Below, piece by piece: positions 17,907 through 26,164 of a stretch of DNA of 64,000 bases. The DNA comes from Candidatus Magnetocorallium paracelense (GTDB lineage Bacteria > Nitrospirota > Thermodesulfovibrionia > Thermodesulfovibrionales > Magnetobacteriaceae). Position numbers and translations under genes: made by a program. A model generated the notes under the pieces. It was not told the origin of the DNA, ran no database searches, and was given only the letters and a program-made list of their open reading frames with translations. The stretch is from the NCBI GenBank assembly GCA_029001845.1, contig JAREWP010000033.1:186001-250000 (forward strand). Reading direction: 5' to 3'. Each line of letters begins with the position of its first letter. The stretch's first letter is position 1.

Positions 17907-20012
17907 ATGAAAAAAACAATCTCTTTAATTCTTGTCATCCTTTCCCTCTCCTACTTCGGACTTGAATTTTTCTTTAGCGGAAAGAAAGATATCTATTATA
18001 TCGGAATAACAGGGCCAATGGGAGGAAAAGCGGGAAATGACGGTATCTCCATGAAGCGCGGAGCCGAGATGGCTCTTAAGGAGATTCAACGACAGGGAAA
18101 ACTCAAGAACATCGAGCTCCAACTATTAATCCATGACGATCAAAGCGATTACAGCTCAAAATACGGCCCTATAGAAATCGCCAGAAAAATTTCTCAAAAT
18201 AAAAAGGTTCTTGCCGTTATTGGCCATAAATTCAGCGTACCTACTATTGCGGCGGCGCCCATATACGCCAAGCACCAAATCCCTCTCATCTCTCCAACGG
18301 CCACGGCCCCTGAAGCAACTGCCGTTAGTGAATGGGCCTTTAGCATGATTTGCAATGATCTTTATCAAAGCAGGTTTTTAGCCAACTATGTGGTCCATGC
18401 ATTGAATAAAAAAAGAATTGCCATAATTCATTCCGAAGACGGTTACGGAAAATCTTTAAAAACTCATTTTATCCGGGAGCTGCAAAAAAATAAAGTAATT
18501 CCCCACACTGTCATTGAGCTACCTGAAAAAGATATGGAACCTGTTCATTTGAAGGTGCATTTGGAACATCTGAAAAAGGCCGACATCATTTTTCTGGCCA
18601 TGCTTAGCGATAATGCCGCTAATGTTTTGAAATACTTAAAAAACAAACAGGTTCAAACCGATTTTATCGGAAACGAGGTATTGGGAAATCCAAAGTTTAT
18701 TCATGATGCAGGCGTTTATTCGGAAAATGTATATGCCGTTACCTCCTTTCTTCAAAACCTTTTGGGCATTGATGCGCGCCTCTATGCACAGCAATACAGG
18801 AAAACCTATTTAAAAGAGCCTGACTGGATTTCTTCTCACAGTTATGAGGCTGTTCAGCTTATTGCCAATGCCATTGAAAAAGTAGGCCCCGATCGTTTTT
18901 CCATCAAAGATTACCTTAAACAAATCCGAAGCCCCCATGAATCGGTAAAAGGTATTGGAGGAAACATTTACTTTGACCGATACGGGTCGAATCAAAGAGC
19001 CATCTATATCGGGCAGGTAAAAAACGGGAGGTTCATCTCTTCCGAATTTCAACTCATCCAGGCGCCCTACCCGGAACTTCTGCCTGCCGGTGAGCAAAAA
19101 GAGTTGGTTCATTTTTACAAACAGGCTCTCAAACGTACAACCATTGTTTTTACAGGGGTTCATATCAAAGAGATTAAAGAAATCAATATTGATGAATCCT
19201 ACTATACCGCTGATTTTAATTTGTGGTTTCGCTGGAACGGTAAAGACGAAAAAAATTTGGACTTTGAACTGCTCAACGGGCAAATCGAAAATCAGGCAAT
19301 TCTGGAAAAATATGAAAATCCCGAAACCGGGGAGCATTTCATCTCCTATGAAATCAAAGCAACCCTTAAAGAAGAATTCCCCTTACACGATTATCCCTTT
19401 GATAAACAAATTCTAGGCATTCAGGTGAAACCATTAAAAGCCCCGACTACGGAAATTCTTTTGGTAGCCGATTTGGATGAGAGTGAAGGATTTCTGCCTA
19501 TCGATCTGGGCATTTGGAGGGAGAGCCTCCATCTTCAGTATGTAGACCTGAAAGAATTCCTTTACAGCTTTCGGAATCCTCAATTCGATCAAAAAATGTA
19601 CACATTGGATTACTCCCTTTTTCACTATGAAATTCGCATGGCACGTGAAGTTTCCGACTATCTCCTCAAAATGATTCCTTTGCTGTTTATGTTGATAATA
19701 GTAGGAATATCCTTTTTCATGGATATCACCCGCAACTCAGGCGCGCGTTTCGATATCGGTTTACTGGGATTGCTTACGGCCGTGGCTTTTCACCAGACGG
19801 TGATCAGTGTGGGATATCTCATTCGGGCGGACTTTTTCTTTATCTGCACTTATTTTTTAATCTCCCTCATCATTGTAGAAACGGTCATTGTAGATCATTT
19901 TTATCACTCTCAAAGGGAGAAACTGGCTTTGGCAATTGATCGATATTCCTTTTCAGGATTTGTAATGATTATTGTGGGACTTGCCATTGCACTTTTTGGC
20001 GATTTTATATAA
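17907..20012 (+). CDS. Periplasmic-binding-protein / pentameric ligand-gated ion channel fusion
   Basis: 701 residues. An N-terminal signal/anchor segment (1-24) is followed by a LivK-type type I periplasmic-binding fold (about 29-385: YIGITGPMGG..., ...LIHDDQSD, PLISPTATAPE, IAIIHSEDGYG). A Cys-loop-receptor-type extracellular domain follows (about 410-575): YTADFNLWFRW and the Pro-loop signature LHDYPFDKQILGIQV (493-507), without the eukaryotic cysteine pair. Four TM segments follow (about 586-606, 614-636 pore-lining M2, 643-664, 682-700) with a short M3-M4 loop, as in prokaryotic channels. It is probably an inner-membrane homopentamer gated by a small molecule (amino-acid-like, by analogy with LivK). 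A TTGACT/TAGTAT promoter lies upstream. First gene of the signalling cluster. Confidence 0.85.
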   Translation: MKKTISLILVILSLSYFGLEFFFSGKKDIYYIGITGPMGGKAGNDGISMKRGAEMALKEIQRQGKLKNIELQLLIHDDQSDYSSKYGPIEIARKISQNKKVLAVIGHKFSVPTIAAAPIYAKHQIPLISPTATAPEATAVSEWAFSMICNDLYQSRFLANYVVHALNKKRIAIIHSEDGYGKSLKTHFIRELQKNKVIPHTVIELPEKDMEPVHLKVHLEHLKKADIIFLAMLSDNAANVLKYLKNKQVQTDFIGNEVLGNPKFIHDAGVYSENVYAVTSFLQNLLGIDARLYAQQYRKTYLKEPDWISSHSYEAVQLIANAIEKVGPDRFSIKDYLKQIRSPHESVKGIGGNIYFDRYGSNQRAIYIGQVKNGRFISSEFQLIQAPYPELLPAGEQKELVHFYKQALKRTTIVFTGVHIKEIKEINIDESYYTADFNLWFRWNGKDEKNLDFELLNGQIENQAILEKYENPETGEHFISYEIKATLKEEFPLHDYPFDKQILGIQVKPLKAPTTEILLVADLDESEGFLPIDLGIWRESLHLQYVDLKEFLYSFRNPQFDQKMYTLDYSLFHYEIRMAREVSDYLLKMIPLLFMLIIVGISFFMDITRNSGARFDIGLLGLLTAVAFHQTVISVGYLIRADFFFICTYFLISLIIVETVIVDHFYHSQREKLALAIDRYSFSGFVMIIVGLAIALFGDFI

Positions 20013-20299: not shown

Positions 20300-21808
20300 A
20301 TGTCCAATTGGATAAAAAAAACAAAATTGAGTACGCGAATTTTTATATTGGTTTCATTTTTACTTACCATGATAATCGCGACGAGTTCTTTCGCGCTGTT
20401 AAAAGTTCACCATTTGGGAATGGAAATCGATGAAATCGCCCATGAAGAGATTCCATTGGCCAGGATTGTAACCAAGCTGACGGAATATATGTTGGATCAG
20501 GCCATGCGTTTTGGGGAAATCCTGCAATATGGAAGTCTGGGCGTCAAAGAAAAATTTGAAGAGGAAGTCCATGATTTTATCGATGCCGGAGAGCGGATTA
20601 ATGATGTGATCAGAGAGGGAAGGAAAATAGCCGAACACAGTATCGAAATTATTCATGATGAGACAAAGAAAAAAGAGCTGGAGCATATCAAACAAATTTT
20701 GGGACAAATCGAAAAAGAGCATGGCGATTATGAACATCACAGCGAAGAGTTGTTTCGAGAAGTTGCTTTAATCAATTTTGGAGAAGAGAGCTCGGAAAGT
20801 AGGGCTCATCGAATAGAAGCGCTCGAGAGGATGGAAAAGGAAACCAAACATCTTGAAGAACTTATTGAGGAAATTTTAGAGGTGATTGATAATTTGACAA
20901 TGCAAATCACCCATGAAGCAGAGACAGAGCAAAGGGAAGCCTTTATTTATCTGATTCTTTTAATCATTTTTTCTATCACTTCGGGATTGGCCTTGAGTTT
21001 ATTTATTATTAGAAATACAGTGCTTCCTTTGAAGGAGTCCATCCTCCAGTTGCTTCAGGGGGCTCAGGAATTTCAGGCAGCCTCCCTGCAAATAGCCAAT
21101 GGCAGTACGTCCCTATCCTATGAATCGGAAAAACAGGCATCCGCCGTTGATAACACCACACATATCATAGACAGCATAAACGATCTTGCCGGGACCAGCG
21201 TGTCTTTGGCGGACCGTCAGGAGCAGCTTATAAAGGAAACCACCACTATTTCCAACACGACTCACGCCAATATCAATGAGATTATGAGCAGCAGCCGTGA
21301 AGTCGCAGATTTTGGAGAGAAAATTGGACCATTAATTAAATCCTTAAATGATATGGCGATGCAATTAAATATGCTGGCCACAAATATCTCTGCCGAGGTA
21401 ACACGCACTCAGGTCGCCCAAAGCATCGTCGTTTTCACTGACGAGATGAGAAGTTTGGCGAAAGAAACCGTTAACCTGGCCCGTGAGGCCGATGAACTGA
21501 CAATGAAATCGGGGATGAATATTCGAAAAGGTTTGGAACTGGCCATGAACACACAGGAAGCCTACAACGAAATTATGGATATTATGCAAAGGCTGAACAA
21601 AGCATGCGATGAGAGTTTGGAAACTTCCAGGCTGGGACAGGAAAAGATCACCGGTGCAAACGGAGCAATCAATCAAATCAATGAGGCCATTCAGAACAAT
21701 GCATCCGTATCGGAGCAAAACGCTGCGGCCAGTGAAGAGTTGAGCGCTCAGGCCCAGGCTCTACTGGATGTTGCAGAGAGCTTAAGGGTTCTTGTGGGGA
21801 AATCATAA
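20300..21808 (+). CDS. Two-TM chemoreceptor-like protein with degenerate signalling tip
   Basis: 502 residues. TM1 (about 12-34), a helical extracytoplasmic domain (35-213; four-helix-bundle type, rich in Glu, His and Lys), TM2 (about 215-237) and a long cytoplasmic coiled coil. The hairpin region NMLATNISAEVTRTQVAQSI (357-376) aligns with the NLLALNAAIEAARAGE tip of chemoreceptors and is followed by a recognisable TDEMRSLAKETV. The Glu and Arg of the tip remain, but the GE-G-RG segment is lost. The C-terminus SVSEQNAAASEELSAQAQ is MCP-like. It lacks a clear HAMP domain. Coupling to CheA/CheW is therefore uncertain. It may serve the neighbouring channels as sensor or clustering scaffold (inference from context). 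Confidence 0.75.
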   Translation: MSNWIKKTKLSTRIFILVSFLLTMIIATSSFALLKVHHLGMEIDEIAHEEIPLARIVTKLTEYMLDQAMRFGEILQYGSLGVKEKFEEEVHDFIDAGERINDVIREGRKIAEHSIEIIHDETKKKELEHIKQILGQIEKEHGDYEHHSEELFREVALINFGEESSESRAHRIEALERMEKETKHLEELIEEILEVIDNLTMQITHEAETEQREAFIYLILLIIFSITSGLALSLFIIRNTVLPLKESILQLLQGAQEFQAASLQIANGSTSLSYESEKQASAVDNTTHIIDSINDLAGTSVSLADRQEQLIKETTTISNTTHANINEIMSSSREVADFGEKIGPLIKSLNDMAMQLNMLATNISAEVTRTQVAQSIVVFTDEMRSLAKETVNLAREADELTMKSGMNIRKGLELAMNTQEAYNEIMDIMQRLNKACDESLETSRLGQEKITGANGAINQINEAIQNNASVSEQNAAASEELSAQAQALLDVAESLRVLVGKS

Positions 21809-21864: not shown

Positions 21865-22932
21865 ATGATTCGCTTTAGTCAAAGAATTGTTAATCACAAA
21901 CTATTTGAGCCATTCATCATTGGTGTCATTATCCTGTGCGGGATTATTGTGGGTCTGGAAACGTCTGAATCATTCGTAGGACAGTATGGTCAATTGTTCT
22001 ATGTGTTCTACAGCATTATCCTGGTAATATTCATTTTGGAAGCGCTGTTAAAGATGACTGCTTTGGCGCCCGATTCTTTTAGATATTTTAAAAACGGCTG
22101 GAATCTTTTTGATTTTTTCGTAATTATTATCGCCCTCATTCCAAACACCGGACAATTCGCTATGGTAGCCAGATTGGTCCGTTTATTAAGAGTTCTCCGT
22201 CTGATTTCCGCCGTTCCGGAGATACGGCTCATTGTCAATACTCTGCTCCGTTCTATTCCAAGCCTGGCCAATATACTTGTGCTGTTATTTTTATTATTTT
22301 ACATCTATGGCGTTACCGGTTATTTTCTATACCACACACATGACCCACTCCATTGGGAGACTCTCGGAATGAGCATGATTACCCTTTTTCGAGTGCTCAC
22401 GTTGGAAGACTGGACCGATATCATGTATAAGGCCATGGAGCTGAATTTCTATCATTGGACCTATTTTGTAAGCTTTGTGATCATCACGACATTCGTTGTG
22501 ATCAATATGTTTGTTGCTATTATTCTTAACAATCTGGACGAAACCAAAAAAGAACACAGCCAGGAAAAACATGAGCTTAGGCAATTAGAAGAAGTTCTCT
22601 CTTCCAAGCAAATACGCGTACAATGTCAACTGCCGGCAACGATAAAAACAGAGGAACTTACGGCAAAAACCGTTATCAGGAATATCAGCATAAAGGGATG
22701 TCGTGTATTATTCCGCAATAAAGACGCCTTGATAAATAAATTTGCAATAGGTGAAAATATATCTTTAACAAGCGTCCTTCCCTTTGCCGAATCGGAGATA
22801 AATTTCTCCGGTGAAATTCGAAGTAAAAATGAAGGGAAGTATATAGCGTCTCTTGGAATTGAATTTGGTGAGGTTAATAAGGAAACACTCAAAACTTTAA
22901 CGAATTTTATCGTTTCCAAATTGAATGTCTGA
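21865..22932 (+). CDS. NaChBac-type voltage-gated cation channel with C-terminal PilZ-like domain
   Basis: 355 residues. Single-repeat 6-TM channel: S1 (about 13-32), S2 with the charge-transfer motif F56-x-x-E59-x-x-x-K63, S3 with N80/D83, S4 with four Arg at three-residue spacing (R103, R106, R109, R112), S5, a pore helix with selectivity filter TLEDWTD (179-185), S6 (203-222) and a short coiled coil. The remainder (about 250-352) looks like PilZ: an LPATI strand, then R-NISIKGCRVLF (272-282) and LGIEF. The first PilZ arginine motif RxxxR is incomplete, so c-di-GMP binding is uncertain. The filter has Asp at the two positions where engineered CavAb gained Ca2+ selectivity, so Ca2+ or mixed permeation is inferred. 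56 bases after the chemoreceptor-like gene. Confidence 0.85.
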   Translation: MIRFSQRIVNHKLFEPFIIGVIILCGIIVGLETSESFVGQYGQLFYVFYSIILVIFILEALLKMTALAPDSFRYFKNGWNLFDFFVIIIALIPNTGQFAMVARLVRLLRVLRLISAVPEIRLIVNTLLRSIPSLANILVLLFLLFYIYGVTGYFLYHTHDPLHWETLGMSMITLFRVLTLEDWTDIMYKAMELNFYHWTYFVSFVIITTFVVINMFVAIILNNLDETKKEHSQEKHELRQLEEVLSSKQIRVQCQLPATIKTEELTAKTVIRNISIKGCRVLFRNKDALINKFAIGENISLTSVLPFAESEINFSGEIRSKNEGKYIASLGIEFGEVNKETLKTLTNFIVSKLNV

Positions 22933-23029: not shown

Positions 23030-24928
23030 ATGACGCTTCTAAAGAATATTATCGATTCTTTCACATGGCAGTTGTTGCTGATTGCGGCAACTCTATACAC
23101 AGTGTTCGGTATTCCCCTGTATATGCTCTCCCTTCCCGGTAAGCTTAACGATTTACCTTATATTGTCATAATATCTGTTGTATTTATTATCTTTGTACTG
23201 GATTGTATTTCCAGAGTCGTTGTTTACAGATGGGTTTATATAAAAACATTAGGCTTTTGGCTGGATTTTCTTTCCATCGTGTTTCTTATTCTGGGGACAC
23301 CGGGTTTGTTATATTATTTCTTCTCTTATACAAACGATAATTTATTGATTAACCCGCGAGTCTTCCGTCTTACCAGATTAATCATCAGACTTACTCCTGT
23401 CGGCAGATTACCAAGGTTTATCAATAAGGAGGAAGAATTCAATCATCAATCGGAAACCGGGATATATGAACAGCAGGCAAGTACTTTACAAATGCAAATA
23501 AACGAGAGATTCAGTACGCTTGTTATTATTTTTGTTATTTTGGCCATTCTGATTGTCCCTGTTACAAATATTATACTGATTACGAACCCTTATCAAAAAA
23601 TATTGAATAATTTAACAAAGATCGATAAAAACGAAAAACTGTTGCATCATTATTTGGAAGTAATTAAATTTGACAAAAGCATATTGCAGGTTAAACGCAC
23701 CGGCAAAGGGGACGCGACAATTTTATTGGATAATAACAATCCTCAAATACAGGCATATGAACGATTGTTTTATACAAATAACAATTTCAGGTTAATTGTA
23801 TCGAATCGGGCAATACAAGCAAAATACGCCATATCGGACTGTATTATGGCGCTGTTCATAATAATGATTACCATTGTATTTAATCTTAGATTGTCAGTTG
23901 TAACCAAAAGGATTCTCATCGATCCCTTACATAAACTAAAAAGCCTCATTAATAATGCGATTCGTCAAAATAAGGAATTAACCTTTCTGGAAAACATCCG
24001 CGATACTGAACCGATCGTATTTTTGGAAAAGGTTTTTATTCCACTACTCCAAAGGGTGATTGCCGCAGTAAATACAGAGTCAAAGGAATCGATACTGGAA
24101 TTAGACGAATCAAAGCAGAATATTATCAAGAAAAGAGATTGGGCTATTTTATTTTCCGATGTCGAGGGATACGTTACAATCACCGAAACATTCCAATCAG
24201 AATCTTTTAAAATTATGAATAAATATTTCGAACACTGCTCTAAGGTTGTTTTTAAGTATAAAGGAGATATCTTTGAAACCACCGGTGATGGCTTGATTAT
24301 CACTTTCGATGGTGAGGAGAAAGAGAAACGCGCTTTTCTTGCCGCCATAGAGATCATCGAAACATTGGACAGAGATATAAAGAATCACAAATGGAATAAC
24401 ATTATCGATCATCCTGAATGGACAGAAGAGTGGACAAAAAGGATTCGTACCAGATTGGGTATTCATGTCGGTTCTGTTTCAACAGGAAGAATCGGAACGG
24501 ACAAAATTTTTCGATACGGAATGGTAGGTGAAACAGCCGGCTTGTCTGCGCGATTGGAATCGGCAAATAAACACTATGGTACTTACCTCCTATTCTCCGA
24601 TAAAATATTTACTTTCGTGCCTGCCGATTATATTGAATTTGTCAGGCAGGTGGACTATGCAAATGTCGTAGGTAAAAATAAGCCCATTGCTATTTACACA
24701 TATGATTTTAATCGCTCCGCCAATTATCATGACTTCAGAAAAGACTATAATTCAGGCATCTACGACTATTTAGCAGGAAAATGGGATGTAGCCTGCAAGC
24801 ATCTGACCAAAGCCCATAATTTATGGCCTGACGAAAGGGCTACTTTAAATTTATTGGAAAGAATGAATGAGAATAACTCGATATGCCCTCCTGATTGGGA
24901 TGGCTCGGTTCAATTGAAAAAGAAATAA
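23030..24928 (+). CDS. Class III nucleotide cyclase with N-terminal voltage-sensor-like domain
   Basis: 632 residues. S1-S4-like bundle: S2 with F55-x-x-D58-x-x-x-R62 and S3 with Asp79 match the charge-transfer centre of voltage sensors; S4 has R110, R113, R116 and R120. A fifth TM (161-183), an extracytoplasmic domain (~184-266), TM6 (268-287) and a HAMP-like linker lead to the cyclase domain (about 368-545): metal Asp377 in FSDVEGY and Asp420 in TTGDGL, then HVGSVSTGRIG and SARLES with Arg508. The purine-specificity lysine is Glu416, as in guanylyl cyclases; the second specificity position is Gly497, and the transition-state Asn is Gly504. Product (cGMP or cAMP) and activity are therefore open. 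The tail ends PPDWDGS, as in many bacterial adenylate cyclases. Confidence 0.8.
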   Translation: MTLLKNIIDSFTWQLLLIAATLYTVFGIPLYMLSLPGKLNDLPYIVIISVVFIIFVLDCISRVVVYRWVYIKTLGFWLDFLSIVFLILGTPGLLYYFFSYTNDNLLINPRVFRLTRLIIRLTPVGRLPRFINKEEEFNHQSETGIYEQQASTLQMQINERFSTLVIIFVILAILIVPVTNIILITNPYQKILNNLTKIDKNEKLLHHYLEVIKFDKSILQVKRTGKGDATILLDNNNPQIQAYERLFYTNNNFRLIVSNRAIQAKYAISDCIMALFIIMITIVFNLRLSVVTKRILIDPLHKLKSLINNAIRQNKELTFLENIRDTEPIVFLEKVFIPLLQRVIAAVNTESKESILELDESKQNIIKKRDWAILFSDVEGYVTITETFQSESFKIMNKYFEHCSKVVFKYKGDIFETTGDGLIITFDGEEKEKRAFLAAIEIIETLDRDIKNHKWNNIIDHPEWTEEWTKRIRTRLGIHVGSVSTGRIGTDKIFRYGMVGETAGLSARLESANKHYGTYLLFSDKIFTFVPADYIEFVRQVDYANVVGKNKPIAIYTYDFNRSANYHDFRKDYNSGIYDYLAGKWDVACKHLTKAHNLWPDERATLNLLERMNENNSICPPDWDGSVQLKKK

Positions 24929-24940
24929 CACTGTAAACAT

Positions 24941-26164
24941 ATGCAATATAAGATTGAAAATTATCTTATGGACCAGACCATATTTAAAGAAGGCGATGTG
25001 GCGAATCATGCCTATCTCATCAAAAGGGGATCAGTAAGAATCTTTAAACACATAAATGATGTTCACGTCCACCTGACCGATTTATTGGGAGGAGATGTAT
25101 TTGGAGAGCTAAGCGTACTCAGAAAAGAGACTCGAACTGCCTCTGCAATGGCGATTGAGTATACCGAGCTTGTGGTAATTAATCAATCAACGCTGCTCAC
25201 GCATATCAAAAAAAGTTCTCCAGTTATCAGATCCATTTTTAGAAAATTGATGAGCAGGGTTGTCGATTTAACGGGAAGATTATCTGAAACGCAAACACAG
25301 ACCAATGATCAGAGTACATTTATGGCTATATGCAACATTTTGGAAATGATGCATACCATACACCTTCATGCACCTGTAAGCGATCGCTCTTCAGATCACG
25401 ATTTGGGAATCAATTACCTCAATCTGTCAAAGAAAATCAGGGATATCATGCCGATCTCTCAATACGATATCGGTGAGACCATAAAAAAACTTCATGAAAT
25501 CGAGATTATAGAGGTGCAATACAAAAAGTCTGCTTCAACAGATAAATCTTCCGAACCGGTTAAGGGGAACACCAGGGAGCATAAGAACGATTCCGCCGAA
25601 AAATTCATCAAAATTTTGTACCCCGATAACTTTCTCCACTTTACAAAAAAGTTCTATAGTGAGTTGCAAGAATTCCAACCTGACCCGGTGGCAGATGAGA
25701 TCGACTTTATCGATATCGATGATTTTGCAAGTATTGTCAAAACCAGTTCCAAAATAATCTACAAAAAAATTTGCGCCGGAGAGATACCGGAGAGTATTTT
25801 TTGTATAAACAGGCCTGAGGCTGTCGAATGGGCAAGCGAGATGGGAGAGGATTATTTTAAAAAAGCAGGAAAGCCGCAGGTAGAGCTCGAGGATATCGAG
25901 TGTATTGATGACATTGTCTATGTGAAAGATGTCATCCTTCAGGAAGCGTTAAGCAGAGTTGGACATAATAAATTATGCACCCTCACGTTAATGGCGGACG
26001 AGAACGCCAGGTCAATTATATTCAGAAATATCTCCTCCAAACTGGCGACAATCATTAAAGAAGAGATGGAAACAAAGGTAATCATCGATAAGGTGGAGGC
26101 TTACGATATAGAAGAGGAGTTCATTGAAAAGATAAAGGAACTTGTGAACGAGTCATGTGAATGA
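24941..26164 (+). CDS. Cyclic-nucleotide-binding protein with HTH-like and FliG-C-like domains
   Basis: 407 residues, soluble. CNB domain (about 5-110) with an intact phosphate-binding cassette GDVFGELSVLRKETRTASA (51-69): Glu56, Arg65 and, right after it, Thr66, the 'RTA' form found in cGMP-dependent kinases and in many bacterial CNBs. A helical middle region follows, then an excisionase-like helix-turn-helix (about 256-300, DIDDFASIVKTSSKIIYKKI). The C-terminus (about 318-402) resembles the FliG C-domain: DDIVYVKDVILQEALSRV and FRNISSKLATIIKEEM. Twelve bases after the cyclase, so it is the obvious reader of that enzyme's product. The output may be a protein scaffold or motor-like partner rather than DNA; no flagellar genes are near. 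Confidence 0.72.
   Translation: MQYKIENYLMDQTIFKEGDVANHAYLIKRGSVRIFKHINDVHVHLTDLLGGDVFGELSVLRKETRTASAMAIEYTELVVINQSTLLTHIKKSSPVIRSIFRKLMSRVVDLTGRLSETQTQTNDQSTFMAICNILEMMHTIHLHAPVSDRSSDHDLGINYLNLSKKIRDIMPISQYDIGETIKKLHEIEIIEVQYKKSASTDKSSEPVKGNTREHKNDSAEKFIKILYPDNFLHFTKKFYSELQEFQPDPVADEIDFIDIDDFASIVKTSSKIIYKKICAGEIPESIFCINRPEAVEWASEMGEDYFKKAGKPQVELEDIECIDDIVYVKDVILQEALSRVGHNKLCTLTLMADENARSIIFRNISSKLATIIKEEMETKVIIDKVEAYDIEEEFIEKIKELVNESCE

Follow-up and report, generated by a model that had tools for sequence, protein, structure and literature searches.

The natural role of bacterial Cys-loop-type channels is still an open question, and a solute-binding domain whose ligand class is tractable, attached to such a channel, provides a direct route to its natural agonist. 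One gene in the 64,000-nucleotide stretch of DNA analysed here (the window) bears directly on this question. Its product was predicted from the sequence to join a LivK-like bilobal domain to a Cys-loop-type pentameric channel (pLGIC). We asked whether this PBP-pLGIC fusion is real, how it is related to other channels and what it might do together with the genes around it.

A LivJ-class domain precedes a predicted complete pLGIC subunit

The fusion of a LivK-like domain and a pLGIC was confirmed and lies far beyond chance. Pfam Peripla_BP_6 matched residues 31-374 with an E-value of 6.4e-41 (score 141.6 bits, cut-off 31.7), and a profile of 46 homologues searched against the PDB matched GLIC-type channels at an E-value of about 1e-32, spanning the entire LBD and TMD. 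The channel half also matched the NCBIfam model LGIC_1 (E 3e-12, under the model's full-length cut-off of 500 bits) and, by phmmer, solved structures of GLIC/GlyR and GABA-A chimaeras (E 1.8e-6). The original prediction had made the channel assignment depend on HMM detection of Neur_chan_LBD and Neur_chan_memb. The Pfam models themselves were negative, with no Neur_chan_LBD match to the 701-residue protein and a weak Neur_chan_memb match (E 0.84), whereas the NCBIfam, phmmer and homologue-profile searches were all positive. The same two Pfam models match 18 and 13 of the 46 homologues, respectively (E ≤ 0.01), and the profile reaches GLIC; the miss therefore reflects model sensitivity rather than absence of the domains. 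A Pfam Neur_chan match serves to detect pLGICs and does not define the family biologically.

An AlphaFold2 model of the full-length protein, built with 28 fused sequences, had a pLDDT of 84.5 and a pTM of 0.81. The channel part modelled alone (residues 401-701) reached a pLDDT of 90.1, with all four TM helices predicted well. Foldseek matched the binding domain to 4gnr (E 1.1e-25), and VIA-align gave Z scores of 43.0 for LivK (3td9), 42.6 for LivJ (4gnr) and 41.1 for a Leu complex (4q6b). Because VIA-align on the whole model had only binding proteins among its listed matches, the channel part was folded separately. For this part, pLGICs were all 50 of the Foldseek matches listed (E 5e-19 to 2.6e-17), and VIA-align matched GluCl (Z 23.9, 2.9 Å over 281 residues) and GABA-A β3 (Z 23.6). 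In the predicted model, residues 401-701 are a full pLGIC subunit, a β-sandwich followed by four TM helices. Since this β-sandwich is complete in the model, the LivJ domain precedes the channel's own ligand domain and does not replace it, which decides between the two arrangements that had initially been proposed. The intact Pro-loop and the four TM segments read from the sequence were likewise recovered, the former at residues 496-499 and the latter as helices between residues 582 and 698 of the model (Table 1).

Near the N-terminus, a hydrophobic run is followed by FFFSGKKD and an obvious AxA site is absent; homologues likewise begin with a hydrophobic leader. Residues 2-22 are probably an uncleaved signal anchor.

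Table 1. Features of the PBP-pLGIC gene and of the MCP-like gene downstream of it
Feature	Position in window	Strand	Basis or remark
PBP-pLGIC gene	17907..20012	+	701 aa; ATG start, TAA stop
N-terminal hydrophobic helix, residues 2-22	17910..17972	+	Predicted model, pLDDT about 50 (low)
Type I periplasmic binding protein domain, LivJ/LivK class, residues 28-385	17988..19061	+	Pfam, Foldseek, VIA-align
pLGIC extracellular β-sandwich (channel's own ligand domain), residues 401-580	19107..19646	+	Predicted model
Pro-loop YPFD, residues 496-499, without flanking cysteines	19392..19403	+	Sequence
M1, residues 582-604, with helix proline P591	19650..19718	+	Model, alignment
M2 pore helix, residues 607-632	19725..19802	+	Model; GLIC alignment by hand
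M3, residues 640-667	19824..19907	+	Model
M4, residues 671-698	19917..20000	+	Model
MCP-like partner gene, 502 aa	20300..21808	+	MCPsignal 35.8 bits against cut-off 34.6
Hairpin tip of MCP-like protein, LNMLATNISAEVTRTQVAQSIVVFTDEM	21365..21448	+	One residue shorter than canonical tip

Residues of the binding cleft, pore and linker

In an alignment with LivJ, S110, T133, E257 and Y180 of the window protein fall at LivJ S79, T102, E226 and Y150, respectively. These four LivJ residues presumably anchor the amino-acid backbone by its α-amino and carboxylate groups or line the cleft. Two positions are changed, LivJ A100 to T131 and LivJ Y202 to Leu. An amino-acid-like ligand is plausible for the binding domain from this alignment.

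Within the channel half, P497 and D522 are invariant across the 28 fused homologues and R580 is nearly so; the Pro-loop and the loop-C region are conserved within the clade. The missing Cys-loop cysteines are usual in bacterial pLGICs. The prime numbering of M2, taken from a hand alignment with GLIC, places R614 at 0', D616 at 2' and L623 at 9', and M2 is conserved throughout the Magnetococcales copies. Cation channels are usually marked by a Glu at -1' or -2', which this helix lacks; D616, the Asp at 2', might favour cations. The M2-M3 linker, through which gating is coupled in known channels, is about 4 residues shorter than that of GLIC in the window protein and 3 residues shorter in the Magnetococcales proteins, and GLIC's proline is absent.

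Relatives and origin of the fusion

A scan for relatives with the single window protein as query found none, and a seven-sequence alignment was too diverse for searching; a genome scan with a two-sequence alignment as query named 80 loci. The binding domain is in the same chain as the channel, and in the same domain order, in at least 36 of them. Fused proteins occur in Magnetococcales, Desulfobacterota, Beggiatoa relatives, Cyanobacteria, Chloroflexota and Salinisphaeraceae, and Pfam searches confirmed the fusion on proteins from five of these six groups. A maximum-likelihood tree of the channel part placed the fused proteins on one side of a branch (98%), the exception being a protein from Electrothrix (L109). 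For the loci sampled, the simplest reading is that the fusion arose once. Within the fused group, the first branch joins the window protein to its Magnetococcales counterparts (100%); the window protein is 39% identical to its nearest relative and 37-40% identical to the two Magnetococcales proteins compared in full. No PBP-pLGIC was found elsewhere in the window's phylum, the window genome standing alone among 395 genomes searched. This lone occurrence, together with the tree position, suggests that the gene was acquired or passed on by lateral transfer. Phage records gave no match and single-protein patterns gave none in viral contigs; the matches in plasmids were limited to Azospirillum channels of the simple type and a single channel from Streptomyces.

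Two candidates from the same family as the window genome were rejected. A 29% match in one genome (G001) is not a broken fusion, being an ordinary LivK gene beside LivHM, and the channels P0002-P0005 are not orthologues, being PBP-free and different channels. The latter (L024, L025, L026, L027, L028) carry a TM anchor at the N-terminus, lack a binding domain and have their Pro-loop changed to VPIED.

Several further architectures were seen among the loci. The gene of the cable bacterium Electrothrix (L109 5607-7921) has a frame break, either real or an assembly error, between binding domain and channel. Two Anaerolineae loci (L065 5690-9295 and L066 1-2961), cut by contig ends, encode proteins of about 1000-1200 aa in the order PBP-I (Peripla_BP_6), pLGIC and SBP_bac_1, that is, a Cys-loop-type channel between two different solute-binding domains. 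Loci L048, L050, L053, L055, L061, L069, L082, L083 and L091 cover Desulfobacterota and Beggiatoa relatives. In Desulfobacterota, PBP-pLGIC genes are found in tandem pairs, whose products could possibly form heteromers, and several adjoin a Band_7/SPFH gene and a gene encoding PBP-I fused to SBP_bac_5. In the Beggiatoa relatives, SBP_bac_5 stands alone. pLGICs of simple architecture are present in contigs labelled archaeal (L043, L047, L068 and L070; Thaumarchaeota, Diapherotrites and Methanobacteriaceae).

An MCP-like gene is paired with the channel gene

The next gene (20300-21808), which the original prediction does not mention, is the only neighbour common to the window channel and its nearest relatives, and no other part of the locus is as informative. 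Its MCPsignal Pfam match is barely above the cut-off, and that of the partner in L040 lies exactly at 34.6. In two Magnetococcales genomes, the window gene best matches the channel-adjacent gene (E about 1e-32; next 7e-10). Among 48 Magnetococcales genomes, searched with thresholds of E ≤ 7.2e-45 for the channel clade and E ≤ 1e-15 for the MCP-like gene, 18 carry the channel clade and the identical 18 carry the MCP-like gene. The chance of identical genome sets is 1.4e-13 when phylogeny is ignored, and relatedness makes the true value larger. For 19 channel copies in 17 genomes, the partner lies directly downstream on the same strand, and in the eighteenth genome the two genes are on separate contigs. 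Two channels and two partners are present in each of G425 and G426, every channel lying beside its own partner. The channel and MCP-like gene pair is conserved in the window and in its sister clade in Magnetococcales. The spacing between alignment ends is 14-136 bases in Magnetococcales as against 291 in the window, and this larger gap makes co-transcription in an operon less certain there. A promoter scan gave results near chance level and a terminator scan exceeded chance only slightly, and neither is used as evidence here.

When compared with other MCPs from the window genome, its relatives and two Magnetococcales genomes, the MCP-like proteins fall into a single branch (100/100). The tip of the window protein, ATNISAEVTRT-QVAQSIVVF, is not the canonical MCP tip; that of the clade reads about LLATNASAEAxRSEATRGF and is shorter by one residue in nearly all members. 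We therefore name the protein MCP-like, and its contact with CheA/CheW is unsure for the same reason. CheA-type kinases are encoded in the window genome. Different genes adjoin the other fused channels, in Desulfobacterota and cyanobacteria, which confines the MCP link to this clade.

Other genes around the locus and in the host

A gene at 21865-22932 joins a PilZ domain to an Ion_trans channel of the voltage-gated type, with RLVRLLRVLRL as S4 and TLEDWTD as filter; its product is possibly a c-di-GMP-controlled cation channel. Homologues of its Ion_trans part occur in 9 of the 48 Magnetococcales genomes, and the 18 that carry the PBP-pLGIC pair gave none at E ≤ 1e-8; this gene was consequently left out of the module. 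Further on, a membrane adenylate/guanylate cyclase (23030-24928) is followed after 12 bases by a protein with cyclic-nucleotide-binding and FliG_C domains (24941-26164); the two might provide a cyclic-nucleotide link to the flagellar switch. Elsewhere in the same genome, contig C66 (L129 8711-11449, minus strand) encodes a 912-aa membrane chemoreceptor with a carbonic-anhydrase-like domain, recognised by eye. It has the canonical MCP tip, its cluster includes a CheA-type gene, and it may be a CO2/bicarbonate chemoreceptor. The host genome encodes magnetochrome domains and hence has magnetosome-type genes.

Possible mechanism and alternatives

From the observed domain make-up, the predicted fold, the deep kinship of the fusion and the conserved gene pair, we propose that the pore is gated when the LivJ domain closes on a periplasmic solute, and that the channel and its MCP-like partner use the signal for chemotaxis; we hold this proposal to be slightly on the probable side. 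One protein would be one subunit of a pentameric, probably homopentameric, inner-membrane channel, with the N-terminal helix anchoring the chain and the LivJ-class domain placed in the periplasm atop the β-sandwich. Binding of a small solute, for which an amino acid or a closely related compound is the likeliest candidate, would shut the two lobes of the binding domain, and lobe closure would alter the β-sandwich ring so that the M2 pore is opened or modulated. The resulting ion current or shift in voltage could then act on the chemotaxis machinery in concert with the MCP-like product of the downstream gene. Several features weigh against this proposal: the shortened M2-M3 linker, the non-canonical MCP-like tip, the wider gene spacing in the window and the different neighbours of other fused channels. 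We suggest only tentatively that the channel and the MCP-like protein are a dedicated two-component receptor, in which a diverged chemoreceptor reads solute-driven ion flow or voltage. If this is true, these bacteria would steer their swimming by a channel of the nerve-receptor type.

GLIC, ELIC and DeCLIC are gated through their own β-sandwich site or by pH or Ca2+. The main rival to gating by the binding domain is that the window channel is gated in these same ways, the binding domain being a modulator or solute concentrator and the MCP-like neighbour reading the solute independently. This arrangement, which we judge possible though rather unlikely, is consistent with the complete β-sandwich and its conserved Pro-loop and loop-C region, with DeCLIC, whose N-terminal domain influences gating kinetics and whose β-sandwich binds calcium (PMC9897478), and with the concentrating role of an extra domain proposed by Tasneem et al. 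(PMC549065). The residues aligned with the presumed LivJ anchors, however, are kept across a deep split, which suggests a true ligand site in the binding domain.

A channel that has lost its gating or its conduction could also serve as a structural sensor that transmits closure of the binding domain mechanically to its MCP-like partner. Such a role would suit the shortened M2-M3 linker, its missing proline and the obligate MCP-like neighbour in Magnetococcales, but M2 keeps the pore-helix pattern (L at 9', R at 0') and is conserved across Magnetococcales, and the TM helices are well predicted; we regard the structural sensor as improbable. The single occurrence in 395 genomes of one phylum might point instead to a LivK gene and a channel gene joined in one genome by chance or in assembly. 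This is refuted by the recurring architecture, which at least 36 of the 80 loci share, as do 19 copies from Magnetococcales; the fused proteins also form one tree branch, with 39% identity between the window protein and its nearest relative, and we leave the chance fusion practically no probability.

Comparison with known systems

PBP-I fusions to bacterial pLGICs (ART-LGIC) were described in Magnetospirillum magnetotacticum and Bradyrhizobium japonicum (Tasneem et al., 2004; PMC549065), in agreement with the statement in the original prediction that surveys of prokaryotic channels had noticed such proteins. Like the window protein, they have an amino-terminal PBP-I domain, a β-sandwich, four TM segments and no Cys-loop cysteines. 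A chemotaxis role for such channels was suggested already in 2004; the operons reported contain PBP-II and Cache genes and a Na+/H+ symporter, and an MCP is not among them (PMC549065). The MCP-like neighbour, found only in the window clade, sets the two apart, by published description rather than by sequence. Our search of the literature available without subscription found no report of a pLGIC with an MCP gene neighbour. The obligate MCP-like neighbour makes the 2004 suggestion a specific, directly testable two-gene question.

The Magnetococcales PBP-pLGICs (L040, L041, L130-L146), sister to the window protein with full support, share its architecture, short M2-M3 linker and MCP-like neighbour; they differ in having Ser/Thr at M2 2', where the window protein has Asp, a 3-residue rather than 4-residue linker deletion, and closer gene spacing. 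DeCLIC (6v4a, 9ev1) is likewise a bacterial pLGIC with a large periplasmic N-terminal domain and was, according to a 2025 paper, the sole bacterial channel with such a domain even partly characterised (PMC12664993). Its N-terminal domain consists of two jelly rolls without a LivJ fold, and the channel is Ca2+-inhibited. GLIC, sTeLIC and ELIC share the fold of window residues 401-701, but lack an N-terminal domain and have a different M2-M3 linker. The LivJ/LivK branched-chain amino-acid binding proteins share the fold of the window domain (Z about 40), and their presumed anchor residues align with identical residues in it; unlike them, the window domain is membrane-anchored and fused, with no LivHMGF transporter genes adjoining. 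Animal ionotropic glutamate receptors also have a LivJ-type domain before a channel, as had been pointed out from the sequence, whereas their channel is tetrameric and of unrelated fold, with the pore inserted in a PBP-II domain; the likeness is a parallel invention, not a homologous combination. The PBP-pLGIC architecture was thus already known, and what is new is the conserved pair of channel and MCP-like protein, with its altered linker and tip.
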